From positions 20,685,984 through 20,749,983 of the forward strand of contig NC_092564.1 in the NCBI RefSeq assembly GCF_037975245.1: 64,000 nt of DNA. Direction: 5' to 3'. Position numbers and translations under genes: made by a program. This document shows positions 10,307 through 62,700 of the stretch, piece after piece. Under the pieces are notes generated by a model that was not told the DNA's origin, made no database searches, and saw nothing but the letters and a program-made list of their open reading frames with translations. Origin of the DNA: Apostichopus japonicus (Eukaryota > Echinodermata > Holothuroidea > Aspidochirotida > Stichopodidae). Within the stretch, counting starts at the first letter, position 1, and each line of letters opens with the position of its first letter.

Positions 10307-13300
10307 ATGCTGGCATCGGACGTGCTAACCACGGAAGGGTATCCAAGGTAATAAAAAAAGAAATTGAATGTTAATTTGTTTTATAAATTTGTTTTCTGTT
10401 TCAATTCAAATTGTTTGTCGATTTTTGTTTTGAGGACTGTTGTAAATTGTTGTTGTCATGTGCGTTAAATTTAGGAGTGAAAGTTAACATTTCGGATTGA
10501 TATCTTAGAAACGTTTGACTTGTATTACCGATTCAAATCCTCTTAAATTAGAGACAACTCCAACTAAGTTTGTACCGAAGTCGTTCGGCACCTTGGAGAT
10601 GATAATGTAAAGTGTGACTATAGAATTACTCGAGTCAAGAAATTGTTAGAAACGCTCATGAAAAGGTGTGACTCGTTGGGCTCCTTGTATATACCAACTG
10701 ATCTTGTTAGGACTAAGGTTAGGTTATATAAAAAAAAACAATTTCACTGCAATACAGTCGCTATACATGTATCTAACCTCCTTCTCTGTTCAGTTACGCT
10801 ACCAAACTGTTAATATATGAACATTTTGCTTTTGGCTGTAATACTGTGCGTTTGAACGTAAGCAAAATTTAGATGACAAAGAACATGTTTGGTTTTGTAG
10901 ATATTTAAAGAGAATCCAGGATGAAGCAAGTTGTTCGAATCCAGTTTGACATCTAGCAGCAGCCTTTTACAATTGTTTTATTGTTTATGTTCTATTTCGT
11001 TTGTCGATTCCTGCTTTCAATGACTGTTGGGTTCATTAACAGGGTTTGCTTTGGTTTATATAAGCATAATAGAACTGTCTAATTAGAAAATAAACCACAA
11101 GCGACCAGAGTGAATGAATGAAAGGGGCATGATAGCACCTCATGGACGGGAAGATCTGAGGAGTTTGTGACTTAATCATATCAGATTAAGGTAACAGTTT
11201 AAAGATGAGATCAGAAACACATGTGCCGACGGGATTTAATTGTAAAGTAAGTAAATCAGTGGATTAACGAACCGATACAATAGAAATAGACTGGTGTTTT
11301 GCTAAACCACTTAATGAAATGATCTTTATGACAAAAGTGTTATTGTTATGACTTTGATTGAATCAGTCGGGTGGTGAATGGTAACCCATCGTTTGTTGTT
11401 AGTTTGTATAACGTAGTGACTTTGGTGTATGACATTGATACATTGGACAAGTCAACAGGTATATGTGATTGGGGAATCCACCGCACCCCATACCGCCACC
11501 ACCAATGAAGTCAGCTTCCACTTCCTCTGGCTGTTTTGTTGTCTATTATTGTTGTTGTTGCTTCCATTCTGAATAATTTGCTAATCTACTTTGCATCATT
11601 CTCTAGGTTCCACCTATTTTTCTGCTTTATATATCCGCCATCCTACATGAGATGTGCTTGTCTTCCTCCCCTGTCACATGACCTGGGAATCCAATGGCCT
11701 CTTGTGAATATGTTCACTGGAATATCTTGAGAAAGACGATGAAGGGGTGGGGATAGGGGTGGGGATAGGGTGGGGACAGGTGGTGGGGATAGGGGTGGGG
11801 ATAGGGGTGGGGATAGGGGGTGGGGATAGGGGTGGCGAAGACAGATAGAGACGGTTAATAGAATGGTATAAACAATAGACTAAACGGGAAAGGAAGGGAA
11901 GGGAATTGTAAGCAACATTGGAAAGAACAAAAGAGAATGGCAATTCGTACTTTAACATTAGGCCCGCGCGTGCTTGTATTTTTAACAAATCAACGCATAA
12001 ACAGACATTTGACATGTACGTGGGCCCTTGTTGAGGTGGGCTACTTTAAGTCATGCCCGTGTCATTCCGATATTGAATCATTCTTCCGGCAAACAATGTG
12101 TCTGCCTCTCTCATCCCACACTCTTGTAATTTGTTCTGACTATTTTCTTCATATTTATCCCATTTATCGACAAGATGAACATTGCTCTTACTACTCCGAT
12201 TACTCTACTTCTCAAAAGTAATCTCCTAACCTACTGTTACCCCCCCCCCCCCTAATAAATGCACTTATAGTAGTTTCAAAATGTGAGATGTTTACTCTCC
12301 TCTTTCAAACTTCTCTTCTCTCTGAAGGATCCCCTCCTGGGATCAAACAGGGTTACCATCATCATATCGTAGCGTGTTCTGTACGAGAAGTTAAGTCAAA
12401 GTGGTTCATTCTTGTCTCCCTCGATCAGTCCTTACGACTGGGAAGGGGAGGGTCGGGTGGGTGAGGGTGGGCAGCTCAAGGCCATGTGAAACATATAAAT
12501 AATAATGGATTCTGATATCATAATATACTTAATAATAAAAATGACTACGGGTGAATTCACATAATCTTCCCCAACCTATAGCTCTCGACCCCCTGCTGCA
12601 TGATATGCCGTTTCCTGCTGTTTTCAACATCATGTTGGATTAAATCAAGGTATCACTTTTTATTAACAATTTCTTCGTCAATTTATCACGACAGTTCCAC
12701 GAAAATGACCCACCCACACATCCTCTTCGGAAATCCTTTGGCGAGAATCGACAGGGTGTACGACACTGTTAGACCAGCCCCGTCACCAGACAGATTGAGG
12801 GAAATGGAAGATGGTTTTATCCTCGACTGTATCATCACCGATAAACTCCGATATAAATGGTCGGCTGACATCATACCGAAATACGACGCTAGGTTCGACC
12901 CGTACGCAGCTCATTATTTTAAATCACCGGCTGTTAATCTACTTTTACGGAAAACGATAATAAACGTAAGTTGATATTTTCCTTTCGATGACACACAGAG
13001 GTGGCGGTATTTTGATGAAGGGAATTGGAGGGATGGGGAGGAGGGATGGGGAGGAGCGGGCGGGGGGAGGCAGTTAACCGTAACCCATGCGGTGAGAATG
13101 ATTTAAACATCGAACTTTAATATTTTCTTCTGTATGAGAAAAGGGAAAACCATAAAACAGTATAACGAAAGATCTACAACGTTTAAAAAGTTTATTCACA
13201 TAATAATGGTTCATTAGTTCTCTGTGGCTGATTCGGGAGGAGCAGGGGATAAAGGGTCACTAGGGTCCATCGGACGGGTGTAATAGGGAGGAAACTCTCG

Positions 13301-20319: not shown

Positions 20320-20662
20320 GATCGTCAATTTTTTGGCCACATCGGTGATTTATTTGAGTTAAGTTGTAATGCCATATTTGTTGGCGTTCCTCGAAAGTGT
20401 TACATTTGATTGATTTTGTGAACGGCTCTGTGAGAACGTCTAACAACCCGGAAGTAGATCAATATTGGCGTTACTAGGCAACGAGCAGCTTTGCCGGAAA
20501 ACCACCTGTTGCAACAAATACAGTGTTTGTATATTGTCGGCCTACGAAGTTTTTCTGAGCTACGGAAATAAACACACGTTAGGCCTTGTTGGTTGCGAGC
20601 CTAGCCTAAGTTAGGTTTCATGTTGGAGAAAGCACCGTAGACGTATTGTCGAGAAACTAAAA
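20320..20662 (+). promoter_or_regulatory. Short intergenic gap, likely promoter and 5' UTR of tandem paralog 2
   Basis: Only 343 bp separate the proposed stop of paralog 1 from the first ATG of paralog 2. The gap is less AT-rich than its surroundings and shows no TATA box that I trust. Its regulatory role is inferred from position alone. Confidence 0.35.
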
Positions 20663-23089
20663 ATGGCTGAAAATGCAGAAGTGGAAAGTATCAACCAGGA
20701 GGGAAATGTAGACGGCGAAGTTGAAAACACTGGCAGCGAGGAAGTAGAGAAAGAAGCAAAAGACGAAGTGAGCAGACCTTCATCGCGAGTATCACAAACA
20801 GGAAAGAAAAAGAAGCAGAAACCACACAGAGGTCCACCATCACCGACTCCCGAAGAATTAGCAGATAAAGAAAAACATTTCCTTTTAGACTGCATAGCTG
20901 TGGATACAATTTGTAAAGACTTTTCACATTCACAACCAAAACTTGGCCCTGCAATACCAGCGTATAATTCACAAAAAGACAAGCATGTGAAAGTTTATTT
21001 TCAGCGAGAGGGTGTTGATGTTACTCTCAGAAAAACAGAGCAAGTATGAGCTGAAATTAAAATTTTGTTTGCTTCTCTTATTCCATCGCTAGCCTGTTAA
21101 TGGCTTAGCCAATGTTCAACATGTCTCCTTCAGTAATTTAGTGAATTAATTAAAATTCCAAATTCATACAGGTTACTGTAGTGTAGAGGTTGCCTCTTAT
21201 TCTTAAACTAGCCTAAGCAGGAAATCAATTGTAGGCCACCTGTGGGTTAATTAATTCACTGGATTGAAAAAGCTAGCATTAAAATTGGTGGAATAGATAA
21301 GTGCTACCCAGTTCACGTAGAAATGGCCTGTTCGATAAAGACCGAAGTTTGGTCTATTTGATAAATCTAAATTGACCCATTTCCTCTTCTCTGTGAATAA
21401 TTTAATTTGGGCCAGTATTTCCTTATCTTTGTACTGTTAACTTATAAATAAATTTACATGTTATGCATTCATATCATGGGAATGTTGCAAACATGCATGG
21501 AATTGCTGATCGATACAAACATAGCTGAACATGTCATGTTAACCTTACTGGTACATTGATGAATTTGGACTTCATTTCATAGAAGTGATGCAAGTTTATG
21601 AAACATTATGAAATATTCATTTTGTACTTCTGTCATCCTTCAACTATTCAATGGCAATTAGTGCATCACATCACATTTACCTCTTTGTTTATGATAGGTG
21701 TTGTACATCTGCAATGACGAATATTATCAATCCCTCCCCCCACCCCCTCCCCCCCCCAAAAATGAAGGTTTGCTTAGACAGCTTTTCGGGGAGAATGAAG
21801 AATTTCACGTACGGTACCTTGACATGTACTTTATATAACATATCAGAAACTGTAGTGCAACTTTGCTATGTTTTATATCTTTCAGGATAAAGGTGGGACT
21901 TCCATTGATGGTCCAGTGATTGATAGATTCATTGAGTCTGGTTCTGGTTACAGATACCTACATGCAAGGAATGAAGCTCCCCGAGCAGCTAAAGGTTTGT
22001 GGTTTGATGAAATTCATGATGTAAACTAGCTGATCTATGTTTGTCTCCAATCTTGGTTTAATAACGTGACTTGGTAGTTGATAATGGTGTTGGTAGACTT
22101 TCCAAAGTGAAGGAGGTACGTAGCAGGTACCAAACACGAAAAGTGCAATTGCTAATTTTGCCACAGACAGGAGTCACAATGTAACAATGGTGTAGTGTAA
22201 CCTGTTGATTCCCTATACTCTTGATTATTTGCGAACTTTTAATAAAAACAAACTGCAAAAATATGACGGCAGTCCATTTCCATTCTCCTTTTTCTCCAGC
22301 TCTCAGCAAAACAAAATTAAAATCCAGTCTACTGAATGTTTCTTCCAATAGGCAGACTTTAATTTAGCGAAGCCCTCTTTAAGTACTGAATTTTGAATGT
22401 TGAATGTCTCTTTCCTAAAATAACAAATTATCTATGAGAATGCATGGATTAATCAAGCTGATCAATGATCCGATCTGGGGTTGGTCCAAGTTTAATTAGT
22501 TGTACATCCAACATAGCTTCACATAGAGCTGTTGTGAGATCTACCTTAATAGCTCAACGTTACCCTAGCTCCCTAGGACCATTTACCACCCTCTGCTAAT
22601 ATATGTATTCTCCAAGCAGTAGTTTTCCATGTATAATAAAAGTAAGATAACTAAGAACCTCGTCTACACTTGCTCTCTTTCCATCTCATCATCCCAACGA
22701 TACTCAGTAAACATCAGATCTCATAGTTGAACTTGAAGCTAAGCCGTTTTGTGTGTTCATTGTGTACATCCACTGTTTGACCCCATCGGTAATATTATAA
22801 TAACTACTTCCGCTGTCCAGGTTGTAGAATCCTTGTGTACAATGGAAATGTCAAAATATTAGGATCCACCTTTTAAGGTTTTGCCTTTTCTTCCTACACT
22901 TTTTGTATATCTACATTTTATTTTGCAGCCGGTCATTCGCAAGATCAAGTCGATGGACACGGGCAGTTTATGTCAGATGCTAAACCTAATTTTGGTTACC
23001 ACGGTCAGTTTGGCTATCGCAGAAACACACCATGGCTCCGCAACATGCCATCTCCCTTCGGAGTTGACCCACGGTCACCCTTACATTAG
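20663..23089 (+). CDS. Unidentified protein, tandem paralog 2 (three coding exons, 216 aa)
   Basis: I do not recognise the family. The coding exons are 20663-21043 (donor GTATGA), 21886-21994 (acceptor TTCAG, donor GTTTGT) and 22929-23089 (acceptor TTTTGCAG, stop TAG). Frame is kept at both joins, for 217 codons including the stop. Residues 1-62 are acidic then Lys/Pro-rich and look disordered. Residues 72-125 hold the module shared with the upstream gene (HFLLDCIAVD, then IPAYNSQKDKHVKVYF, then TLRKT). Exon 2 adds SGSGYRYLHARNEAPRAAKG. The C-terminus has a compact aromatic/basic stretch, NFGYHGQFGYRRNTPWLR, ending about 20 residues before the stop. No signal peptide or membrane helix is seen. 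The ATG lies only 343 bp after the proposed end of paralog 1, so its promoter must be in that gap or in the upstream gene. A microtubule-associated role is a guess from composition only. Confidence 0.8.
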
Positions 23090-30597: not shown

Positions 30598-30966
30598 TTA
30601 AACGGCATTGAAGACTCGCCCCAAACCGTGTGCGGCCATCTGAAAAAGTTAACTTTCTGTTGCTTGCAAGTGACGTTTTGTGCGTGTCGCTACAAAATGC
30701 AGATAGTAATGAAACGTCATACCTTGTTATCTTTAGCTGGACCTGAGATGTCCATCGCTGTATCGTTTGTATACTGTGCTGTGGGTATTGACCGCAGCTG
30801 TATGTACTGACTGCACACTAGTGTCTAATTACCGACGGTAGCAAGCTGTGTGTGTATTTTCTGGGATCGATGGTGGTGTTTAACACTTCTGTTACACCTC
30901 ATTCGAAACTAGGTCAGATTACCGGCATAAGACGTTTTTTTTTGCGCGAGTCTTCAAACCCTTTAA
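30598..30966 (+). mobile_element. MITE copy 1 (about 369 bp)
   Basis: A second copy lies inverted at 41233-41603. The ends are inverted repeats: left TTTAAACGGCATTGAAGACT, right the complement of TTAAAGGGTTTGAAGACTCG. The element is bounded by TTTAA/TTAA-like sequence. It has no transposase. A 60-codon frame inside is shared with the other copy only because the two elements are similar. It lies 3' of the ARM-TIR-SAM gene. Confidence 0.8.
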
Positions 30967-31887: not shown

Positions 31888-33534
31888 TCATCTAATATCT
31901 TGTAAAGCCTCTGTAAACCTGAGAATGTCAAAGAAATTAGAAATACCCAGATCCTCTTTAAGACTCCTGAAGAAGAACTCGGGTGCTTCCTGACGGAGGG
32001 CTTTCATCTGATGAAGAAGCTTGCCGGTGCATTCTTGAAAGGAATCTCGGTACCTGAATGAGAAGATGATGCCAAATATTAAAATTGCTCAATTACCGAT
32101 GAATGCCGTTCCAAGAAGGTGATCAAAATGCATAATTCCATCAGCTTTATGTTGACTTAACAGAAAATCTCCAGATTCTTGGATGGAAACTGAGGCAGAA
32201 GTACAGAAAAAGGTTTCAAGGCTTACAGTCTTGTATGAAGGCAAGGCTTTCTCACAGGACTTTACAACATTTTTACTGCCTGGTCACTTGGTAACTTGTC
32301 ACAGCAACAAAACTCTGTTTGCACGATTCAAACAGTCACTCCCAACCGCATCATGGTAAGCCCTGTTATTCTTTGTTTGTGGGTTTGTTAATAACTGTAA
32401 AGGACATCTTTAGGCAGAATCTTAGTCTTGATATGTGCTAGGATTGCTTCAGTAGCTTTCAAGGTTTATCAAGATATTTGACACAATTTTGTCTTTGACA
32501 AAACTAACACATTATAAACAGGTCATTAGAGGCCATAAGCATCTTTTATGTTGTTTTTCCCATTGAATTTCGTGTTGTATTTGAGAAACTGATCTGGGTA
32601 TAGGAATATATAGTCCGGTCACTTAAGTTGACAAAATTTCACTTGTTTAAAGTGTCATGTTTCAAAAATGAAAAAGTGTTATATAAAGAAATGAAACTTG
32701 GACAAAAAAGTGATGTATTTTAATAATCTACAACATATCCAAATTAATTGTATGCCGGCCTTAGAGTCAAACTTTTAAATATGTAAAATATATTTGAGTT
32801 TTGTTTACAAATAACTGCTATAAATACATATATTCACATATTCATATTCATATATATTCATACATTCAGTTGCTATAGAAATTTGATTATCTTTGTACAG
32901 CAGGTTGTGAAACTACAGCAGATTTTTTTTGCTTATGATAAATTTGACTATGAATAATAATCCACATGGATGATGTATTAGAGAAAATATTAACAAAACT
33001 TGTTATGATTTCTTATCCTACGGTTAGTTTTATTATTCGACAGTAACTTCTCTCGTCATTCTGACCGAGTCATATAAAATATTTACTCAATGTTGGATTC
33101 TCCATCAATCTCACAAAGAGGGTTATCAGTTTACAAGAATTAATATGCTCTTAATTTAGCGATCACTAAGTCTGATACAGAGACTTTGTGTCCTGCAAGA
33201 ATTTCTTCTCATATTTTCCTGTATTTCTTTCGCAAAACCTTTGAAACATAACGTCATCCTTCCTGGTAGGAACTCGGTGGACTAAAAGTAACAGTTTATT
33301 TTTTTAATGGTAGATATTTCTTCTTAAAACACAGATTACGAATAAACGCAAATCATGCGGCAGCAGCATTAAGGCTGATGGGTTCTCACTTTTCAAGGTT
33401 ATGTTCCATAAGCCATGACTGTACGTCCTCTGCTCTCCAGTTCACGGTCCCTGGTGGTGATGCTTGGCAGCTTAGTTCACACGACTTGGTAATGTCTGGC
33501 TCAACGGTTTCTTCTACGAAGACAGAATCCGGAG
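31888..33534 (-). other. SAM-domain exons of the ARM-TIR-SAM gene
   Basis: Exon 9 (33534-33390) ends in phase 2 at donor GTGAGA. The next in-frame codon in genomic DNA would be a TGA, so splicing is needed to avoid termination. Exon 10 (32053-31888) completes Lys673 and continues YRDSFQECTGKLLHQM, then DLGISNFFDILRF, and ends after ALQDIR. The Trp657, EDVQSWL and DLGI positions fit the SAM helical fold. SAM domains often drive oligomer formation, as in the SARM1 octamer. Confidence 0.9.
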
Positions 33535-36500
33535 CTGATAATAGCAGGAAGGCAGAGAGAGAGAGACCAATACGACACCAGATTACTAATAAGAAGCTTT
33601 TTTTATTTGGCAATCAGATTCAGCTGATTTTATCAAGTATTGTTCAACAAAATTAAGGATTGCAACTGATCAAACTATTAAAGTCACCCTGCAAGATTTG
33701 TTTCGGCCAATGAAGTTGTATTTGATAACAAGTATTAAACTAACATTTGCATATTTGGTTCATAAGTCTTACTAACCAGTTGACGGCTCCATTCTGGGTA
33801 GAGAGAGACGTGTTAAATCCTAAAAAAGTATATGAGGAATAACACAATAGCAAGCTGAGAACAAATCGAGTGCATCTTTGTGAGAATTTTATCACAAAAA
33901 GAACAAAGGTAACTATACTGCCTTTAGTTCTGGATGGTTCAACCAAGTCGAAAACTATGAAATTCAATGAAAGTTTGTGGCTGTACATGCCTCTCTAACC
34001 AGCTATCAGTTAAAGATTTTAAACTCTAAATTAATTGCTAAACTTCAGCTTTTCTATAGAAGCCCCCTGTAAATGTAGGGTATTTGTACTTACTTTCAAA
34101 CGAACCCTTTGAACTATCCAGTTCTCTGGTTAGTTTCTGGACACTCTCTTCAAACGGCACAATTCCAGAGAAGTCCATATAGTACTTAGCTCCCAGAATG
34201 AGGCCGAGCCAGCCGTCTGGTTCGTAGTACATATCCATCATCAGCGGGATGATCCACTTCTGGAGCTGGTAGGCGTACTCTGCCTCTGTTGGTGGGAGAC
34301 AGAACCAGACACGGAATTTAATCGCTAAAACTGAAAGCAAACCAAGCTGCAGATATTTGCCACTTTGATCCTTTACACATTGTGTTTCGGCCACCTTTTG
34401 TTCCACTACTCCCACCCCCTTAGCAACTGAAAACCTCCTTCAGCCCATATTATACCAGCTGTGGATGAATGGTTTACATATGAAGCCTGGGGACCAAATT
34501 ATTGTTTATGCCTATACTTGCTTCACAACACCTCCCCCAGGGGTTAACTTGCAATCCAAGGGGGTGTGTGTTCTCAAGGTTAAGAAATGTTGCTTTATGC
34601 CCTTCAAAGACTTGGCCTCTTCCTTGTGCACTTTACCTACTTTACCAAGTTTCATTTGTATCCATGGCAGATGAAAAAACTATGTACTATTTCTTGTCTG
34701 ATCCTCCTCGCTTGAACCAAAATGACCATTGACCCAGGATATTTTAGTCCAATAACATCTCTAACATAGTTCAATAACAAATTCAAAGCTCTTCAACAGA
34801 AGTTTAGTCAGACAGACATATCGATTGCTTTAACATTTGGCTCTTTTGACCAGTCTTGACCAATTACGCTCTACATGAACTAAATAATAATAATATTCAG
34901 CAGTTATTTTTTGATGTTTAAGCGACCACAGAAGATGGAAAACCTGCAAGGGCTTATGGATTACAACTTACATGTTGGGTGGCTTCCAATTCAACATTTT
35001 AATTCAAATTTGAAGTCCTTTACAATTTAAGAAAGTCATTTCAGATGGGAAACCATAGATTGCTCTTGTATGATAAACCCACCTTACTATGACCGATTGC
35101 TAAGCATCATTGCTTCAAATGCCACCATCTTAATCCACTCGGCCACAGAACGGCTACAAATGAATGACTAACCCTTTTCATCATTATTCCCAGGGGATTA
35201 ACGAAAGCTACATCAAACGCGTGCTGTTTCATGCATGTTTTATATGGAAGGGATGTCTAATGCCGTGTGTAAAAAAATTCTGATTTGAGCATCAAGAACT
35301 GACAAAGAAAAGGCAAATTGATAGCTAGATCTGGCATTTCAATCCCAGCAGGAGGTTCATCCAGCCCCTCCAACAAGAAAGAAGGAAACTGATTGCAGAC
35401 TATGATAATTCCAAATATCTCAAAGTAAAGTAAAACCTCAACATCCAAACAAAATAATCCCACATAACAAACCTAAAATTATTATTTCATGTCCTCGTTC
35501 AATCAAGGGACTTAAAAATAGTCATGTCATCAGCATTGATGGAATCCCCCCCGCCCCCAACCTTAGTTTCTTTTGTTCTCAGGTAATTTGCATATTCATA
35601 AGTTGAAAGTACGGATCAGAACTGATCTTGACCAATGGTAACTGAGGGGTGGTACGGGCAGGGGGGGAGGGGGGGAATGGGCACGCACAACTCTCATGCT
35701 TAGATTACTTTGGTCTGTGGGAGTTCTGGTATCAGATGTTCTTGTGTAACATATGTAAGTGCACGTTGATTTTATATTTTTATGCCTTGCTAAAGGCTCA
35801 TATGGCTGTTATTAAATTCTTGTTGCAGGGTGTTGAAGTTAAAATGTACATTATACTTCAAGCTCATCTCAGGCTTGTATTTTTAATATAGCAGTCTATC
35901 ATTTGTATTTGCTTGTAGTCAGGTTTCATGAATGTAGCTGTAGTTTTTTCACCATTTAAGTTGTTCCACTTGATTTGTGCTAACTGTTTGATTTTTCAGT
36001 ATTATTATATATACTTTTTTTTAGTTATTGGTTCTTTATTGTCTATGATATTTCTGTATATTTTCCCAGAAAGCTGCAGTAAATCAGAAAATGTCCCCAG
36101 AGAAGCTTTGTATTGCTGGAAGCCATGCGCATGTTTCTTTTCCCTTCTAAGATTTGTAAGTTGTGACACACTGTTGTTTATACATGTATATTGTCAGCCT
36201 AGGTGAATGTTCATCAATATTATGGGTATGCACTTTTACTTCTTGCTGCAAAATCACTTTTCTGTTTCAAGCACATTTCCATATATGAAATTCTGTATGA
36301 TCTTCTGTATGATTTTCAATCTGATTCATAATCCTTGGGGTTGGGGAGGAGGAGGGGAGATAAATGATATGGAAAAAATATGCCCAAGACAAAAATAAAA
36401 GACTTTACCTGTCCTGCAATTAGGGCTCATCTTATATCCTTCTGACATACAGATGATAACTGCTGCAGCCTTTTCCACAGCTTCTGCCATCGCTTGGAGT

Positions 36501-39500
36501 GTTGAGCCACACATTCTGTCTACATCTACCCAGACTATATAGCCAGCAGCCTTTAAATGGAGAGGGAAAAAAATTATGTCTAGACATAACCTTTGTAAAA
36601 TATCCTGCAAATACAACAGAACTGATTCAAAGCAAAACCAAGCTAGTTTCCATTTGCAGTACAATTTCTCACGCCATAAAACATAATATCCCGAAGGAAA
36701 ATTTTGGATGAATATCGTTTTTTCTGCCATATGGATAATTCAAGAGATGTTTAAGGTCTGCAATACATTTCAAAGCAATCGTTGACGCATCAACAAAGCC
36801 TACCACACTATTACAACAGTTGCAACTAGCCTAGCCTACATACTGTAGCATACCAGTAGGATTACCGTACATGCCGTCCTTGGACATGTTTTCGACCTGA
36901 AGATGGAAGGCAAATTCAGTGATTGTCTATTTATTTACTTCCTTCCAATTGTTAAACTCAAGAGCAACTTAGATGGTAAACATTGCTTTCCTAAATTTTA
37001 GTATGCTAAAAGTTGAAGGAAGTTCTTCCTCTCCAAGTCAACTCCATACCTCTGCACAAGACACTGTAAATGTGGCAGTACACTATGAGTTGATGTATGA
37101 CCCTAGTTTTGAACAGAGCCAAGAAATGTTGGACGATTTAAACAAGATTAGTACCTTTGACCTCAGCAGACAGTTTGTGCGCCCTACTTACTGAGTAATC
37201 CAAACCATTTAGTAGGAGGCGATCCCTATGTAGCCATTCCCCTCCCTGGAGGAGCTAGTCAGTAACTACATTTCCTTGCATTCTATACTGTGTAGCCAGA
37301 GATCAACCCAGTTTATACAAAGAGTACTAATGTATGTCAACTTGTAGCACAAGTACAGACATATCATGAGTACTTCAGTAGAATTAAGCTTGGTTTTGAG
37401 TACAATTTACAAGTACAATCATCTAGGCAAGAGTACAATATTTTGCATTAAATTCCTACACTAGTAACGAATGCCAGTGCTCGTACAGAGCCCCTTACAA
37501 GTCTGGTAGGTATATCCTGTGGTTCTTTCCCAGGCAGTTTATTCTTTATTGTTGCATGTACATTGTATTTATCTATATCCTAACATAACATAACATACTA
37601 ACATATTCAGTGGAGGCCGTATATACTAATGACCTCTCAATCAAACTAACCACTAATACATCTCTTATTTTCAGCACCATCTTCTGAGAGCTCCACTGGT
37701 AACTGATCATCACATGAATCCTTCTTAAGCTGCTCTGTCTGGAACTCTTGGGTCTTCCTCTCTCTGAGCGAACGATACCATAAATTCAAGTTAAGCCATA
37801 TAAATATTTCAACAAAGAGTAATCATTTGCAAAAATCTGATTCTAATGTACATGTTTCAACACGTGCCACAAAGGACAGACCAAAAGTAGCTGATATAAG
37901 AAATTAAAGGGGAGAAGAGAACTTTTTACACCGATCTTTTATAAAACTTTTATGATTATTTGGAATGGTAAAAATGTCAGAACAAAAGCAATTGGACAGA
38001 TCTGAAGCATTGTTACAAAGCATAATTATATGTTAAGTGGAAATATTCAAAATATCCTGCTTGTATTAGAATTGTTAAGCTAAACGGCCAGTTAAGAATT
38101 TATGTAGTATAAAGAAAGAAACATGTCTGTAGTTGCACCACATTGGTTACTTAAGTGAAGAGAATTTTCGTTTCATAACAAAATCTATATATATATATAT
38201 ATATATATATATCTATATATATCTATATATATATATATATATATATACATATAGACCAGGAATTGAAACTTGTTATATAGAAGAATGTCCGCATGGTAGT
38301 GAAGTCACTGGAAATTACAGATTTCTGCTGGATTAGCAGAAGCTTTGGAAAATAGGATTATTTTCAATATGTATCAGATTATTTTAATCCGATTCCATAT
38401 ATTGAAATATATATATGTGTTCCAGTTAGATAATTTGTGTATTTGCCTTAAATGTTTTATTTCAGTAAGGCTTTCACTATGATTTGTGAAATTGTTGTGT
38501 AATACTTAGCCATATATACATAAATAAGAACCACTCATCATAAGGCAATGTGTTGATTGCTGCACTGATGAGATTCCCTCAAGAAGTTTTTGAATTATTG
38601 GGACTTCTTGATTGTTGAATACTAGGCAACAAAGATATTACAAAACAACGAAGTTCATTGTTAAGTTCAAGTCAGTACTGAATAAAGAAGTCCAAAATTT
38701 TGAAAATGTCTGATTCTATACATTACAAGATATGCAGTTAATACTATAACATGAATTTTTTCTGGCAGACACACTTTTCAAGATGGCAGGCAATAATGCC
38801 TATGTAACATTCATAAGGTGAAACCAGAAGATCAACAGGCTTTAAGTGATTCCTTGTCAGGTTTTTGAGAACTCTAGTTTGGGTAACTCTATTTTTCGAG
38901 AAAAATATTTAAATAAGCAAAGCTTCTTTTTTTGACAAAAATATATTTTTGCCTCTTTGACCTCCAAGAAATAAATTTTTGGGGACACCAAAATATATTT
39001 CTGGAAGAAAGAGACCAGCCAAAATATATATAGAAAATATATAGAATAAAGAGAGAACCAAAATACATTTCTCAAAAAGCAGAGATGTGAAAATATATTA
39101 CAGACATGCCAATAATATTTTTTTGCTCAGAGGGACTAATGAGCCATCGTAGAACTGTTTGCATTAACTTACTTTTACTATCAACACTGCCCTCGTCCTC
39201 AATACTCTTCCTGACTTGACGAAGCATCCACATTGTTCCCTTGGCAGACAATTCCACTGCTTTGTTACCGCACGACTGCAAATGCCTCAAACTGCTTAGA
39301 GCCTTCTCATTGGTGGACAGTAATTTGCATATAGAAGGATCAAATGATAAACTCCACAGAGCTTCTGTGGCGGCCTCTTGTTCTAATATGTCTTCACTGT
39401 TCAGCATATTGATGAAAGGAGGAAGCCCATTGGCTGATTGAATCTAAGAAATAAATAAAATGTAAAATTATCATCAGAAATATGTAAATGATGATCCCAA

Positions 39501-42500
39501 GGGAGAAATGACACACAAAATGGGATTTAAGTATAAAATTAAATATAAGAGCTAAATATATAATAACTGAGTTCATACATTAGACCTAACGTAATCACTA
39601 AATAGAACACCGACTGCCTGTAAAGTCCTTCAACTCACAAGTTTGCATTTTTGCAAACTCTACCACTCACATTCACAGCTTGGCATATTACAGTCCAAGT
39701 TTGTTAGCTCTTTTAACAATGCTACACTTAATATTTCTCCCTCAAATAATGGTATGATCAAACATCTAGCCCTGCTCTATAATTTTTGTTAAATTAAGAG
39801 AAAAAACCATTAAAAAATACAAAAACCCAACCTTTAATTTATTTGTATCATTGACAGCCAGCCTTCCGAGGCCATTAGCCAGTTCTGTGCAAGAGAGTCC
39901 CTGGGCTCTTCGATCTTCACTCTCCTGAGCCTCCTTCAGTAACTTTATCAAGAACTCAATAGTTCCTACATTGGCAAACAAAGACATAGTTAAAAATTCA
40001 ATTAGGTAACTTGTCTGAGGCCTGTTCCATCTGTCTATATCCTATCCATATATATATATGTTGATACCCTTCCATAACTTGTTTCATAATGAGTTTTGAG
40101 GTAATCATTCAATCACAAATAGTGTAACGATTAAAACAGTTGGAAGTGTTTCATATTTCGCTTCTGACCAGATGAGGGTTACCATATTTAGTCCGTAGTA
40201 AGTTTGACAAGCTGGTGATAAGTTTGCTGTTCAGGTTGTATTGCTGGTACAAGTTAAATACGTATGTATTGTACACTAGGTTTATTTATAATAGTTTGTC
40301 TGCCAGTGGGTGTGGTGGATGGGGGGGGGGGAGGGGAAGGAGGGGATGGCTGTTCAGAAGTACAAGTGGTTGCTGCCCTGATTATCAGACTTCTCTGTTG
40401 TTTCCAGGGACTAAAGCTTGAAGGAAAAAGAGGCACCAGTTGAAGGTACCAAAGTTCATTGGATATTCTCTGGCTCAGTGTATGCCAAAATATGAATACA
40501 CAAAGATTTTCCAAAATTATGAGTAAAATATATGCAAACAGATAATCTAAACCTTTCAAAGAAATGCTAGAAAATATGCTATACATGTTTTATAAATGTT
40601 ACGGCTATTTAGGCAGTTATCACCATTTTCCGTGTTGCTTTATACTCTTTAAATGTAACAAAATAACTACACAGGGTACCACATTACGCTGGTCTCCTGT
40701 AACAGACCTTTTTCATCTAATAAGCTTTCTTGATCTTCATCTACAATGTTGGCCAGAATCAGCATACATAGGGCCTTTAAGTATTTCTGATCAGTTGTGG
40801 TGAAAGGCAACAGTTTCTGGACCAGGTCGTTTTCTCGGAATTGTCGACGGTTTGCTGGAATCTTGGACAGGTTGTGGAGGATACTGAGAGATGCCTTTAT
40901 CAAGAACATTACATTCTGTTGGACAATGAGAAATATTTGACATCATTTCAATTTTCGTTGTCATATACTTGAAATAATTTCAAGCTAAATTGGCTAAAAT
41001 TGTCAAATTCTAGACCTGAAATGATTTTGCTACTTAAGATATATTTCATTAGTCAGTGTCTGTTCATTATTTCAATCCCTTTGAACTTTTACCATACATG
41101 TACCTCTTTCAACCAGATAAAACATGGTGACATAATTTCTTATTTCAACAGTATGATGGAAGGTGATTGCCCACAAAACTTTGCTTGCTAAATATACTGG
41201 CAAGTTTTGTTACTTCTTAAATGTTTTTTGCCTTAAAGGGTGTGAAGACTGGCGCAAAAAGAAACGTCTAATGCGGGTAATCTGACCTAGTTTCAAATGA
41301 GGTGTAACAGAAGTGTTAGACACCACCATCGATCCCAGAAAATGCGCACACAGCTTGCTACCTTCGATAATTAGACACTAGTGTACAGCCAGTATATACA
41401 GCTGCGGTCAATACCCACAGCACAGTGTACAAACGATACAGTGATGGACATCTCAGGTCCAGCTAAAGATAACAAGATATCACGTTTCATTACTGTCTGC
41501 ATTTTGTAGCGACAAGCAGAAAACTTCACTTGCAAGCAACAGAAAGTTAACCATTTTTCAGATCGCGGCACGCGGTTTGGGGCGAGTCTTCAATGCCTTT
41601 AAATACTATTTTCAAAAGAGTAAAGAAAAACTAATCAACTATGATTTCTGGCATCAAGACACAAACTGTCATGAATTTTATTTTCATTTTTATTAAACTA
41701 GGAAGATATTTACCTTCTTTTCTAGATGATCGATGTAGGGTTTATGCGCTACATTTGTAGCGCATAAACCAATTATTCCGCAGTCTCCTAAACTTGCTGC
41801 AAGTTCACTGCTTTCATCACTCAAGTTCCAGACAACGTTGTAGCAATAGTTGGCAGGATACCAAACGTTGTTCCTCTTAAACAGACCTTCTTTGCTGAGA
41901 GATTTCAAGACAGTCAACAAAATATCTGTAAACAGAGCGACAACAATACAAGTCAACCAATTAACACATTGGTATTTAACGTTTATACAGGCAATTTTAT
42001 AAAAACGTACGTACTTAGCATAAATCAGGATCAAATATGAGAATGGGGTTAATTTCATGTACTGTAGTAGAATTCTGGCAATTAATAAAATGGACATAAT
42101 TTCTTTTCTCTAAAAATGACTTGCCTCTTAGTTTAATAGTAAAACTTAAGCACAGTATAAACTTTTTTTTTCAGAAATCATATCTATAGCTTTTTGAAGG
42201 TTTGTCAGATAAGATCATTAAAATTAATCAAAACTACATTCCAGGTTGTCTGAGGCACCTAAGGGTAGTTTCCACTTGAAGTCCTCAATTATACATTCTC
42301 ACAAAGTATAAACCATATTTTGCTGATTTTGCTGTTCAGAAAATCTTTAAATAAAAGTTCAGGCTGTCCAAGGAAGACCAACAAACACTTACACTTTCAT
42401 ATTTAATGGTATGACAAGAACAACAAAACTATGATAGGCCTATCTTAATATCTGAGATACAGTTTCATTAATCCTTTAATGTGTCTAACAACTTTTTGAC

Positions 42501-43229
42501 CTTTACAGAAAATTTTACGATGACAGTGTATAGATATCGCTTCTACTGTAAACCTTCACTGAAAGGCCTATATATACTGATGTTCATATTTCATTGTTGG
42601 TACACATGCATGTTAGGTGAAAGCATACCTGCTCCTTGGACACCATCCACGGCTGATGCAATGCTCCCTCTGAATTGTGGATGTTGCCAATGGTGGTTAG
42701 CTATACCTTTTAGAATCTCAAGAGCTCTTTCTGTCGAGAACGTTTCCATTCCTCTAAGTTCTACCAACCAACTTTGAATCTTGATCAGGATGGTCTCCTC
42801 CAGTTGATTTTCCTCACTTTTCTCATCTGCATTTTCTGCTTCCTCTTCATCTGGCTGATGTTGACCCTGACCATCCTCCCTGCTGCTTGAAGTTCCGCCT
42901 CTTAAACCATCTATTTTGTTGTCTCCTTCTGTAGGTTCACTCGAAACCACCTCACATCTGACATCTTTAGCCTGACTGTTAACCTCACTCTCAGAATCAT
43001 TACTGCAGTGAGCGTTTTCATACAATTCTTTGTCTCTGCTTCCTTCAGTCACTCCATCACTCTCCCTTTTTGCACCATCAAAGGTGTTGCTTTCTGTTCC
43101 GGTGGATGTGGCTATAGATGATTCGCTATATTCACTAACATGACCTTGTTTCACTACCTTTTCCTGCTCTTCTTCTGAAGTTTGTCGAGTCAGTAATTTG
43201 GGAGCCAATGATTGGATGTTTCCTGACAT
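31888..43229 (-). CDS. ARM-TIR-SAM domain protein, SARM1-like parts in a different order (ten coding exons, 727 aa)
   Basis: The coding exons in transcript order are 43229-42629, 41925-41714, 40915-40708, 39965-39832, 39443-39173, 37763-37651, 36550-36409, 34285-34094, 33534-33390 and 32053-31888 (TGA). Every join preserves phase, and the total is 2184 nt. Residues 1-150 are Ser/Glu-rich and probably disordered. Residues about 155-475 are helical with armadillo-like character. A TIR domain spans about 492-620 (HVMISYQW, GYIVWVDVDRMCGSTLQAMA, CMSEGYKMSPNCR, PDGWLGL). A SAM domain spans about 655-725 (NWRAEDVQSWLMEHNLEKYR). Glu561, in NCRTEAEYAY, falls where SARM1 has its catalytic Glu642. SARM1 is ARM-SAM-SAM-TIR and 724 aa in human; here TIR precedes a single SAM. 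A cytosolic NAD-cleaving or immune/cell-death role is inferred from family knowledge. An acceptor at 43247 implies an upstream 5' UTR exon. Confidence 0.92.
33773..33819 (-). other. Possible alternative (truncating) exon in the ARM-TIR-SAM gene
   Basis: A good acceptor (TTTTTTAG) at 33820 is followed by 47 nt coding for RFNTSLSTQNGAVNW and donor GTAAGA at 33772. Inclusion would shift the SAM exon into a frame that stops after six codons. Direct splicing of 34094 to 33534 keeps frame without it, so it is left out of the main model. It may be a cryptic exon. Confidence 0.25.
34094..37763 (-). other. TIR-domain exons of the ARM-TIR-SAM gene
   Basis: Three exons (37763-37651, 36550-36409 and 34285-34094) build one TIR domain. 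The first gives beta-A (HVMISYQW) and its following helix. The second gives the GYIVWVDVDRM strand/loop and the SEGYKMSPNC segment. The third gives Glu561, the KWIIPLMM strand and PDGWLGL. The donor after the first exon is taken as GTG|GTTAGT because it restores the length expected for a TIR between KIRD and AAGY. A GTATTA donor six bases upstream is an alternative that would remove two residues. Confidence 0.9.
38186..38252. repeat. (TA)n microsatellite with two TC interruptions
   Basis: This alternating TA tract of about 65 bp is interrupted near 38212 and 38222. It lies in the intron between coding exons 5 and 6 of the ARM-TIR-SAM gene. Confidence 0.95.
39173..41925 (-). other. ARM-like repeat exons of the ARM-TIR-SAM gene
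   Basis: Coding exons 2-5 code for residues 201-475. The sequence is amphipathic, Leu-rich helices with armadillo-type wording: NVVWNLSDESSELAASLG, SLSILHNLSKIPANRRQF, EAATEALWSLSFD and GTMWMLRQVRKS. In SARM1 the equivalent region holds the TIR domains inactive and senses NAD+/NMN. Whether this one does so cannot be read from sequence. The donor of exon 3 is the unusual GTCTGT, chosen because it alone keeps frame with exon 4 (LLDEKG|TIEFL). Confidence 0.85.
41233..41603 (-). mobile_element. MITE copy 2, inverted relative to copy 1
   Basis: This is the reverse-orientation counterpart of the element at 30598-30966, with the same ends (TTAAAGGGTGTGAAGACT at one side, complement of TTTAAAGGCATTGAAGACTC at the other) and collinear interior. 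It is inserted in the intron between coding exons 2 and 3 of the ARM-TIR-SAM gene, away from the splice sites. The 66-codon minus frame inside is not a gene. Confidence 0.8.
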
Positions 43230-56700: not shown

Positions 56701-59700
56701 TTTGGTATCCAAATCTAGCATCAAAACCAAACATTTTCTTTTTTGCTCGTTTCCTCCCAAAATAAGCACATTTTTTCTAATGTGACCTTTGACCTTGGTT
56801 TCAGATGTAGTTTAATCTCCTGATTCCAAAAAACAAAACGACAAGTCTGTGCAACCATCCTAACTCCGACTGAAAAACTTTGACCCCATATAACTTCGCA
56901 CATAAAGGTCACACGGGGTCAACCTATTGACATTTATGTTCAGAAGGTACCTTTGACATCTGAAAATAGCATCGAAACTGTAAAAATCCCCCAAAACACG
57001 TAAAGGTCACCAAAGGTCATATTGAGGTCAAGGGTCACCCAGGTGCGGGTCGACAATTGGATTGCATTGAAGCAACTCCCAACCCTAACGGACATTTCGT
57101 TCTCAAGTTATCGCAAAAATACTACTTTTTTATCATTAATTGACCTTTGTTGACCTTCGATCACATTACCGTTATGTTTGGAAACGATGCTTTACCCCAT
57201 TCACAACTACTCCCAAAATATCAACCATGTCGGAACCTGTCAATGGGAGTTATTGCTGTTTTTAATATATTGGTTTTTGGCATCTAACTGACCTTTGGTG
57301 ACCTTTGCGGGCACTTAAAACAATAGGGATCTTCCTCTTACTATGGGCTATCCACCCAACAAGTTTCATCATGATACATCATTTCCTTATTGAGATATCG
57401 TGTACACAAGCCAAGCGTCACATACACACACACACACACGCCAAGTTGAACGCATAGGTTCCTTGCTTTGCAAAAAGCAAGGAACCAAAAACAATAAAAT
57501 ATTATGAAACTCAATGCCAACAATTAATCTCCTGGATGCCTAACAGAGTTGCCCACGTGACGACTGGTGGATTTTCATTCCCTATTTAAGTATCTGACAA
57601 TTCAAGACGAGGAGGTATTACTACCTATCAACAAAATTGCTCAAATTTGGTTCCCTTAAAAATTTGTTTCATGTTTGCTACAATCCATTAAAATTCTTAT
57701 TTCAAATGGGGGATGCACAACTCACCTCTCTGGCTTTCTTCAGAGACGACCTTCTGTACATGTAGTCCTCCGAGTCGACCACATAGACCATCCTGTAGGA
57801 GTTGAGGTTAAACTTACACTCCATATTGTTGACCATCTCTACCCCCTGGAGCTGCTTCACCGGCTTACCCCCGCTGTCAACTTCCATCTTAACCTCCTCC
57901 CCCTCCTCCAACGTGATAGTAGCACCTTCTTTTCCGTTTTCCTTCTTGCTCTGGTTATCAAAGCTCTCTTGCTGTTGCTTCTCCGAAGGGTCAGCTGCGG
58001 TTTCGGCTGCTTCAGTCTTCTCGTTACTTCCGCCTACTTTGCGTTTACTGGCGTCGTCGGCTCTCTCCTGCCTCTGTAGATTCTTGCTCCTGATTGGCTC
58101 CTTCAGAGATGCTGCAGCTTGAGTAGACATGGTCAGTAGGGACTCCTTCATTTGTCTTGACTGTCGTAAGTTTCTGTTGGGAGGAAAGGAGACGATTGTT
58201 GTTGAGTGGAGTTATTTGGCAGCAACTGTGATCTATTCAATAGGTGGAGGTACGTTACAGTGTCAGTCTCACAACCGCTGTGCTCATGGTGCAAATAAAC
58301 ATCCAGAACCAGAATATCTTGACCTGTTTAAAATTGCTCCTGTTTTGTGGAGCTGTCTTCTGTGGAGTTGGTATTCTTGTCTGTGATTTGGGTTTCAGGG
58401 AATCTGCTTTCAACTTTAGTTCCTCCTCAACTAATATTCTACTAAATTAATCTTGTATAAAAATTCTGTGTATGAATATTCTGTTTAAATGATTACATCT
58501 TACTTTGGGTTGTATTGAAAGCCACAGACAGAACTTGCTTGAATGGATTAAAAGCCACAACAGACAGATGTTATGTGGTTGGCTTGCAAACCTGAATGTT
58601 TAAAATCAACTAATATTCACCTCCTTAAGAAGACTGCTTTCTTTGACATGTCATCCTTCAATGTCTCTGAGGTATCTGTGCTGCTGACGTACTTCTGCAT
58701 GTAAGAGACCCACTTGCCGACCTCTACCGGATCATCGCTATGGTCCTCCTCTGTATCCAGTAGCTCTATGCCAAGGGCCTTATCTCGTTTCACCTGATGA
58801 AAATCATCACAAATTAAAATGTAAACAAAAGATATCCCTGAAATGGGATTGTGTATTCGTCATCCCTATCACTTATTAGCTTAGCAGTGTCCAATAAATT
58901 CAGCTTTGACTGAGAAGCTTTCATCCTCTGAACCGGAATATAATCTTGGTCTTTACGACATTTCAAACCTGTCTAACGAGAAACATGCAGCACAGTTTTC
59001 GGTGGTTGTAACTTTGTGAAAATGCAGTCAGTGTCTTGAACTCAATCAGAAGAGCTACACTTGCATATTTAGGGTGCATGTTTGGTATCTGTATGGGTGC
59101 ATGTTTTGGTATCTGTATGGGTGCATGAGGTGCTGTATTGGTGCATGTATGATATCTGTGTGGGTGCATGAGGTGCTTGTTTGGTATCTGTATGGGTGCA
59201 TGAGGTGCTGTATTGGTGCATGTTTGATATCTGTATGGGTGCATGAGGTGCTTGTTTGGAATCTGTATGGGTGCACGAGGTGCCGTATGGGTTCATGTTT
59301 GGTATCTGTATTGGTGGATGAGGTGCTGTATGGGTGCATGTTTGGTATCTGTATTATTTGCTGCCTGGGTATATTCTGTCTGTAAAACCCTCTAGGGATA
59401 TTATTGTGTTCGGTGAGAAAAAAAAACCCTCTTGGGATTCTTTGTTTATTTCACATCATTTGTATTCATTTCTTTGAATACTAGATGGTTTGCTGGATTG
59501 AAGAGATTCATTGTAGAGATTCAGCAAAACTCACGTAAGTAACTTTGAAGCAGTTTTCATCTGGTATTAGTTGTTCCACTTTTCTCTGGTAAGCAGATTC
59601 TTGTGAAACCCTGGCAGGGGCTGAAGCCATGGTGCCTCCTGTTGCACCAGTACCGGTCTCCGATAAATAAAAGTCAGTGATCTGTAGGCAGGTATCTTCA

Positions 59701-62700
59701 ACTACAAGATTCTGAAGCTGAAGAAACAATGAAATCAGAGAGTGGATTTAGTACAGAGTTGATACAGATTCTTATAGATTTCAACAAATCACAGTTAGCA
59801 TGATTTTCTAATTTAATATTAACATGAATTAGTAAGGACTACTTAAAAGCACCCTGGTTGTCGTCATCATCCCCCACCCCCACACCCCCCGTCATCATAC
59901 TTCATGTACATCTAAGTAAATTGTTATTTTCCTACATGTGAAAGCATAGGAAATATCCATGAATGCTGTATCACTACAACCCTCTGCCCACACAATAGTA
60001 AGTTGAGATGAAAACAATACGGCTAACATTACAGCAATGTCTCCTATGTAACATAGCTGACACAGAGAGGTACTTCTTTCCGCCCATCTCCAATAAAGCA
60101 AGCAAGCTGTTATGAACGTACCTGTCTGACGATATTCTGCACGACCTTATCAAGAGTAAAGGCCAAATAAGCGTGGATGCCAAACATTTCCCTGAGTTGG
60201 TCTTCATACACACTGCTCTCCATGTTGCCATCCAAAACATTCCTGACCATTTCTAGCAATGTGGAGTAATACCCCTCGGGCTCTACATCCACTGTTTGAC
60301 AAAGAAGAGCAATTGTAATTATTACTAACAATGCACACCACAAGGGAAGTTAAACAGATGTTTATAACAACATATGGAAATAGAGGTATGTAAATGCAGA
60401 TACGTAATTTGAAACTGGCTCTAAGACAAGGTCACATTGATGAGATGTCAACTCACAGTTGGACACTACCTTGAGTAACAACATTTGAAAACAAGTAATA
60501 GTATATGATCGGACTGAACCAAAGTTCTGCAACATGTCACGCTAATCCAGTTCAACATTTTTCTTAGAATTTCTTTAAATTAGAGCACATTCAACTACCA
60601 CACATTAAACAAATAGCAGTGCCCCTCACTCATGTCCCCCCCCCCCCCAGTAAGAACATTTTAGGGAACTTTACTGTGAGTGCAGAGTGCAGTTGTGACT
60701 CTGGACACAAAGACACCACAGGCTTATAAACAAAGAGTTCAAACAGATTTTATATTGAAATCATTTATTCAATACAAAACTCCACGTCCGAAATGAAATC
60801 CCCCAAATAATAGTATCATTGCATTAATATTAGTTTATATTTGTTGCGTGGTCACAGACTGATATAAGGCAAGAATCAGGTCTGGTGGAAGGTCACTTAC
60901 GAGGTGTTTTCAGGCCCAAGGCCACAGCAGTGGAGACTTTACTGGGCTTCCTCTGGCCTCCGTCTGACTCTGCGATAACTTCTGCTCTTTTCTTCATCTT
61001 GAGCAGTCTCTCACAGAGGATGGTGTAGAGCCGAAAGAAGAGGTACCAATTGTTGTTGGTAAAAAACACATGGTAGATGTTGTCCTGCATAGTTAATAGG
61101 AGTGAAAGGTGAGTCATCGTTAGCAGATACACAAATAACATCGTACATATGCCAGAGTTTGACTGAGTGGAATGTACAACGTTCACCATACTTAGCGAGG
61201 ACATCTCATACAATTCGATATTCCTACAATAGTAGCCTTCCATTAGAATAGAAATATCAACAGAAAACTTAAATACTGCATTTGACAATACTGTTCACTT
61301 ACCAGGATTTTAAATAAAAATAGAAATAAATGTGTTAAGTTTATTTCCCCATAGTGAGTGAGAGTGACTTGTATTGTTGTTACAATGCAGGGAATAATTT
61401 ATGAAGTATCACATAAATGCTACAAAATATGGGTAAATTGCTTTACAAATGCAAACATGTATAACAGTTTTGTACACAGGGACCATAGTACTTTACCCTT
61501 TCAGAAACTTTTAAATTGCTGCACAAAATTTAAACACTAGATTATTCCCTTCAATGTACAATTTAAACTTTAAATGCGAAGAACTCGCAACATGCAAGTT
61601 GGAAGACATCATTTGGCTCCCAGATGTCATCATTCATAACCCATTGATGAATGGCAGATGCAGAATCAAATTGATAACAAATTAAGCAGGAAAGCGAACA
61701 GAAAGAATGCATAAAGCAAAGAAAAGAATCGTAAAAAGAAAATTCTATACAACTCCACAACACATTCTTCTAGTTCTTTCATTCTTCTAGCCTAAAACTG
61801 ATTAAAGAACACATACAATGAATGGTGAGATATAGAAAACAAGATCATAATTTATTGAGGAAGGGATAGGATAGAAGACTGAGAGAGTATGAAAGCAAGA
61901 CTCACAGATGTCCACATGTGCTTATCTGCAGGTCCCCCAGCAAGCTTGGCTTTCACTTTCTTGTCAAACGTCTCCTTTCTTGGTGAATTAGATTCCTGTT
62001 CATCGGTTTCCATATCTTGGTGGGTAAAGACAAATCAGGAAACTTAATAAACACAATTGCTCCCTAGACAATTAATTTGACTATTGTTAAAAGCAAAGAA
62101 AATCTCAAAATGTTGAAAATTTAAGATACAGAAAATAAAATGTTAACAAACCGCTCTTCTACTGCGAAAGGCTGTACATGAATAAATAATAAAGGGGTCC
62201 TAGCATGATTTTCAGTTGAACCAAAAGGCTGGCAGAATAAGGACACACTTTAAATAGACAGATGGACAGACAAATTAATGGGACCAATGAATGTTACAAT
62301 ACCAGTTTGAATGAGCAAAGCAATTTTCAGGCACAATGGATTTCATCAACCAGTTAACAGGATAAGAAGTCACCTCGCTCTACCAACTATATAACCATTT
62401 CTTTCCTGGGGATGGGGCAGGGGGGGGGAACTTTTTTAACATGCATACCTTCATCATCGTCATCATCCTCGTCATCAGACAGCTCTCCTCTTTCAACAAA
62501 GAGAAAGTCTGGCAGGAAGTGATGTAATAACTGCTTGATCTTCTGTTTCTCTTCTTTATGTATCCCTGTAATAAGAGAACATTAAATGTGTATCAACGTA
62601 AGAAGAAAAAATTTATCAGATGAGTACCCACGTGAAATATAAAGAAAGCAAAGTACAACATAAATCACACGCACAACAAGGTTTTGCCCTTTCGAGACAG

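Follow-up and report, generated by a model that had tools for sequence, protein, structure and literature searches.

A complete-looking ARM-TIR-SAM gene of Apostichopus japonicus and its relation to SARM1

Introduction

The locus described here raises the question of whether a gene encoding the three domain types of the nerve-degeneration enzyme SARM1 in another order is a reordered SARM1 or a gene of a different kind, and what its protein may do. It lies in a stretch of 64,000 nucleotides of Apostichopus japonicus DNA, which was analysed as a whole and is called the window. A sequence-only reading of the window had described a ten-exon gene for an ARM-TIR-SAM protein as the SARM1 parts list in a different order.

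According to the passages cited here, SARM1-type TIRs are described as C-terminal (PMC7075850), ARM-TIR proteins have been named in oyster (PMC4346834) and in Aplysia (PMC9334734), and a clam protein of ecTIR-DC family 6 contains ARM, Death and two TIR domains (PMC6836662). ecTIR-DC proteins were described in a placozoan study and are apparently absent in vertebrates (PMC6321704, in the passage cited), and an amphioxus TIR-SAM hybrid gene is presented as supported by cDNA (PMC2575513, likewise).

Results

Gene model and exon chain

The genome searched comprised 671,581,487 bases in 35 contigs, with the window on contig C4. The window gene is on the minus strand, from 43229 to 31888, and its ten exons (Table 1) give 2184 nt after joining, that is, 727 codons and one stop with no internal stop. 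The single 727-codon frame read earlier was thereby confirmed with exactly the same limits, and the phase agreement claimed for the nine splice joins was borne out, all nine introns being GT-AG (9/9) and eight of the phases recurring in the paralogue C4b described below. An acceptor-like CAG stands directly 5' of exon 1, where the frame is open, and a further 5' exon (UTR or coding) may lie upstream.

Table 1. Exons of the window gene, with positions in the window, the phase in which each exon is entered, and the basis of each assignment
Exon	Positions	Strand	Entry phase	Content	Basis
1	42629..43229	-		start codon, acidic N-terminus (residues 1-143), first ARM helices	ORF from ATG; donor gtatgc; phase 1 out; ARM profile match near end
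2	41714..41925	-	1	ARM repeats	GT-AG; ARM profile match; entry frame common to paralogue C4b
3	40708..40915	-	0	ARM repeats	GT-AG; donor gtctgt; ARM profile match; phases as in C4b
4	39832..39965	-	1	ARM repeats	phase as in C4b; ARM profile match
5	39173..39443	-	0	ARM repeats	ARM profile match; holds most of Pfam Arm 381-418 (1.3e-5)
6	37651..37763	-	1	basic linker and TIR start (HVMISYQW)	TIR profile match
7	36409..36550	-	0	TIR middle; end falls within Glu561 codon (equivalent of SARM1 Glu642)	TIR profile match
8	34094..34285	-	1	remainder of Glu561 codon and C-terminal TIR	TIR profile match
9	33390..33534	-	1	linker and first SAM part	SAM profile match
10	31888..32053	-	2	SAM remainder (APEFF motif) and stop	SAM profile match; Pfam SAM_1 support (1.4e-6)

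Domains of the window protein

The three domains assigned earlier were recovered by Pfam above the curated cut-offs and in the order assigned: Arm at residues 381-418 (E 1.3e-5), TIR_2 at residues 493-612 (E 4.6e-20) and SAM_1 at residues 656-726 (E 1.4e-6). The order of the window protein is ARM-TIR-SAM with a single SAM. A wider ARM match, ARM_ARMC5 at residues 246-427 (E 2e-9), was below its cut-off, and no LRR family appeared in the Pfam table of the window protein up to E 1. The acidic stretch that had been reported is present (34 D/E vs 14 K/R); it is not a tail as had been said, since it occupies the N-terminal residues 1-143.

All six-frame stretches of at least 15 codons in the window were compared with profiles of the three domains, and no extra ARM, TIR or SAM exon was found among them, the next best match after the known exons being at E 0.87; the SAM and TIR sequences of the SARM1 of this genome found nothing better than E 0.2 among the six-frame stretches of the window. 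Extra SAM or TIR exons were accordingly rejected for stretches of this length in the window, and the SARM1 order, which further exons of this kind were to have restored had the first reading been wrong, was not restored by any.

Elsewhere in the window, the SPMAP1-like (sperm microtubule) family was matched on the plus strand at 12582-12974 and 20615-21049, two neighbouring places that are probably tandem genes, and two Sin3a C-terminal domain stretches, one above the cut-off and one just below it, mark a conserved neighbour gene at 57702-61294 on the minus strand. A 324-nt inverted repeat (30643-30966 and 41233-41556, 93% complementary), probably an interspersed element, has its copies past the 3' end of the window gene and within intron 2. 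Scans of the window for tRNA and with Rfam were empty.

Paralogues in the genome

When the genome was searched with the window protein, the matches were the window gene itself, a place on contig C8, contig C4 at about 22.19-22.20 Mb and TIRs on contig C13. Match counts are lower bounds, and by similarity the window gene is a member of a family of at least three predicted genes in this genome (the window gene, C4b and C8). C4b (C4:22185898-22211829, nine exons) lies 1.46 Mb from the window gene; its predicted protein is 33% identical to the window protein, repeats the ARM-TIR-SAM order, with a SAM of the same kind at its end. No exon 1 was found for C4b; the first exon that was found is entered in the phase of window exon 2, and the eight introns between the found exons share the phases of window introns 2-9, the donor of the intron from exon 8 to exon 9 having been picked among candidates for its fit to the window gene. 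C8 (C8:42148673-42153514) was read as five exons, which encode 628 residues in the order ARM-TIR-SAM, and two choices fit its last acceptor. The window gene served as a guide when the joins of both paralogues were chosen for an open frame.

Pfam TIR_2 was found in both paralogues. For the other domains, Pfam support was weak or absent: on C8, SAM_3 scored 0.0018, which is below its cut-off, and Arm was not matched, and on C4b, Arm scored 0.022 and SAM was not matched. The assignment of ARM and SAM in the predicted paralogues rests on similarity to the window gene (C8 ARM 3e-18, C8 SAM 6e-13, C4b SAM 0.001). The APEFF motif is found in all three SAMs, and conserved TIR, ARM and SAM residues are shared by 3/3 members. 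With the C8 and C4b proteins as queries, no further member was found at E 0.01, the only other matches being the TIRs on C13.

That the gene is a prediction artefact, the TIR and SAM exons of two adjoining genes having been joined by eye, can be given hardly any credence: the chain was read from genomic DNA and the donor of exon 3 looks weak, but the matching exon of C4b ends at the corresponding place in the same phase, C4b repeats both chain and order, and C8 repeats the order. With the 5' end excepted, the exon chain of the window gene is judged from genomic DNA to be sound even before RNA-seq, because C4b keeps its order and phases and C8 keeps its order.

The N-terminus of the C8 paralogue, MGSSSSVQKKK, resembles an N-myristoylation signal, and this one member of the family may be located on membranes.

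Other TIRs were met in the same genome. On C13, similar TIRs occur in the gene at 25584214-25588731 and near 25.62, 25.65 and 25.68 Mb. These four places fit into about 100 kb and probably form a tandem array; in the gene that was read, two TIRs come after a Death domain (Pfam 4.8e-12). On C9, seven TIR_2 places were found on the plus strand at 23380741-23804538, their open frames ranging from 189 to 1058 codons; two of them (L006 and L008) are TLR-like by eye.

Comparison with the SARM1 of the same genome

A canonical SARM1 with the order ARM-SAM-SAM-TIR is present on contig C15. The TIR of ceTIR-1 as query gave a single match in the genome (1/1), at this place, and upstream of the TIR in the reading direction the second SAM, the first SAM and the ARM exon were found (Pfam SAM_2 4.4e-11 and 1.4e-9, TIR_2 5.8e-12). 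Against solved SARM1 chains, its second SAM scored 5e-18 and its ARM exon 1e-79 to 1e-87.

If the window gene were a diverged paralogue of SARM1, with one SAM lost and the other shifted behind the TIR, the identity of the three domain types would be accounted for. Comparisons with the SARM1 ARM, the NMN/NAD+-sensing domain, speak against such descent: the family ARM profile gave 74 ARM matches among solved chains at E 0.01 or better, with Vac8 first and no SARM1 in the best 60 of the 74, although the ARM exon of the resident SARM1 finds SARM1 chains with ease, and the hhalign probability of the family ARM profile against the ARM of the resident SARM1 was 0.3% (a three-sequence profile against one sequence). 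A likeness by eye of the start of the window ARM to the SARM1 site around Trp103, of the form W-x-x-P-x-F/Y, was considered and dropped, as it is absent in C8 and is without hhalign support.

The family TIR profile found as its best solved relatives ceTIR-1 (2.7e-5), Cat1 (5.3e-5) and SARM1 TIRs (0.004), and MyD88 behind these (0.076 at best). ceTIR-1, SARM1 and Cat1 are NADases, in part according to their PDB names. That ceTIR-1 comes first is a point for descent from SARM1, and so is the position of one intron: in the resident SARM1 the codon of the catalytic Glu directly follows an intron (phase 0 as read by eye), and in the window family this codon is itself split by an intron (intron 7 of the window gene, phase 1), at a distance of one nucleotide, which may be chance or a common intron that has slid. 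The SAM comparison says little on kinship, because the first value in the family SAM profile's list (liprin-beta-1 1e-6, SMS1 0.0013, others, then the SARM1 SAM at 0.014) is the sum of three weak matches of which the best single one is 0.72.

TIR phylogeny

The TIR tree (unrooted, ultrafast bootstrap) contained 13 sequences. Four of the five bacterial loci were entered, without L049, which is close to L048; the several TLRs were represented by one, and the C13 genes, at least four in number, likewise by one. The bacterial loci came from a single scan of a prokaryote genome collection with two TIR peptide patterns, by which 59 stretches were obtained, six of them relatives; 5/6 relatives are bacterial TIRs with 26-29% identity. 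The sixth, L046, on a contig filed as a Planctomycetota MAG, has a TIR that shares 46% identity with residues 3-127 of the query. It is taken as probably a misbinned eukaryote, because its two frames are divided by a GT-AG-like interruption and its protein is of an ARM-like-TIR kind. As in the family, ARM-like sequence precedes its TIR: hhalign aligned it with family columns 405-620 (last ARM repeats and TIR) at a probability of 99.9, and no ARM was named in it by Pfam. Unlike the family proteins, it ends after the TIR and has no SAM. Thin as one contig is, an ARM-like-TIR protein without SAM suggests that ARM-TIR came first and that the SAM was added later.

The window gene, C8, C4b and L046 were split from the other nine TIRs with a support of 92; within this group the supports were lower, at 67 and 68. 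In this small tree the resident SARM1 and ceTIR-1 joined with a support of 100, apart from the family. The one TIR included from a TLR of this genome lies far from the family.

The TIR of the family groups with the probable eukaryotic L046 and not with SARM1, and together with the ARM comparisons this makes a diverged SARM1 paralogue very improbable. By these comparisons, the window gene belongs to a separate gene family and a rearranged SARM1 was rejected. The earlier description holds for the domain types and their order and fails where it takes the gene as a reordered SARM1: a separate canonical SARM1 is present, the ARM is unmatched, there is one SAM and not two, and the TIR stands apart.

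TIR residues at the catalytic and interface positions of SARM1

SARM1 numbering was taken from PMC8635717 for D594, E596 and G601 and from PMC8266388 for W638 and E642, in the passages cited. Glu561 of the window protein, the codon of which is split by intron 7, aligns with the catalytic Glu642. Because an equivalent Glu is found in 13/13 aligned TIRs, the TLR included, Glu561 alone does not indicate activity. Two residues of the SARM1 BE interface, Asp594 and Glu596, are reported as functionally important (PMC8635717, in the passage cited), and in the alignment they are matched by Asp522 and Asp524 of the window protein; the TLR in the alignment has the equivalent of neither. G528 pairs with the SARM1 loop glycine in one alignment and is one column off in the tree alignment, and was not counted.

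The position of SARM1 Trp638 is occupied by Asn557 in the window protein, by Ser in C8 and by Asn in C4b. For the SARM1 mutants examined, W638 included, kcat is given as lowered about 100- to 400-fold, with W638 in the subset whose Km rose more than 4-fold, and W638 is counted among the multimerization residues (PMC8266388, in the passage cited). SARM1 Arg569-Arg570 is also replaced in the family, and Trp499 of the window protein occupies the position of Arg570. Positions 569 and 570 were counted on from Y568. Six aligned TIRs have the form ISYxW: those of the three family members, that of L046 and two from a single C13 gene. This group is defined by Trp at position 570 and its members are not independent; 6/6 of them carry Asn or Ser at position 638. 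Among the other seven, Trp is found at 570 in 0/7 and at 638 in 5/7.

These replacements are consistent with a non-enzymatic TIR adaptor, in which TIR and SAM would be assembly modules recruiting TLR/MyD88-type partners and the ARM a protein-binding scaffold. The loss of the equivalents of Trp638 and Arg569-Arg570 and the presence of the catalytic-position Glu in the TLR TIR would suit such a protein, and the placozoan genome study, in the part cited, mentions the hypothesis that ecTIR-DC proteins act as adaptors or regulators (PMC6321704). With ceTIR-1 and Cat1 coming first among the solved chains found by the TIR profile and the one TLR TIR of the genome far from the family in the tree, the adaptor is held to be somewhat less than an even chance. 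A TIR-type NAD+ glycohydrolase output of the window protein is plausible, and this reading is slightly favoured over a pure scaffold; its own chance is about even.

Discussion

The window gene is read as a complete-looking gene for an ARM-TIR-SAM protein of the invertebrate TIR-domain-protein kind (ARM-TIR / ecTIR-DC), probably cytosolic and presumably with an immune role. A switch mechanism is proposed for it, in which the ARM solenoid would bind a partner or ligand and hold the adjoining TIR in check, and the C-terminal SAM would cluster the protein or dock it onto another SAM protein; once the restraint was lifted, the clustered TIRs would pair and signal. This reading as a whole, mechanism included, is considered as likely to be right as to be wrong. 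The domain order ARM-TIR-SAM would also imply an assembly geometry different from that of SARM1, as had been proposed for the C-terminal SAM.

With SARM1/TIR-1 the window protein has in common the ARM, SAM and TIR types and the positions of Glu642, Asp594 and (as Asp) Glu596; unlike it, SARM1/TIR-1 has the order ARM-SAM-SAM-TIR, two SAMs, a kept Trp638 and an ARM to which that of the family was unmatched in our tests. The invertebrate ARM-TIR/ecTIR-DC proteins of oyster, Aplysia and clam resemble the window protein in having ARM repeats and TIR in one protein, but a C-terminal SAM is not mentioned for them in the passages cited. The amphioxus TIR-SAM protein is, like the window protein, a deuterostome protein with TIR and SAM, but no ARM is mentioned for it in the passage cited, the two being compared by description only. 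ARM-TIR and TIR-SAM are already described in invertebrates, and the new part is the ARM-TIR-SAM combination as a variant. No such order was found in the literature searched, a set without most subscription journals and the Gerdol 2017 survey.

A further reading is that echinoderms have, besides SARM1, a second ARM-restrained and SAM-assembled TIR enzyme, built independently from the old ARM-TIR module and a C-terminal SAM, in which the swapped tryptophan may serve; we regard it as rather unlikely. Sequence databases may already contain predicted proteins of the ARM-TIR-SAM order without a name.

If the TIR is active, the family would be a natural test of the features of SARM1, the domain types being the same and the order, the number of SAMs and the important tryptophan being different, and the set of ARM, SAM and TIR would have been assembled more than once. 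If the protein is a scaffold, it would be another cytosolic invertebrate TIR adaptor, of ordinary interest.
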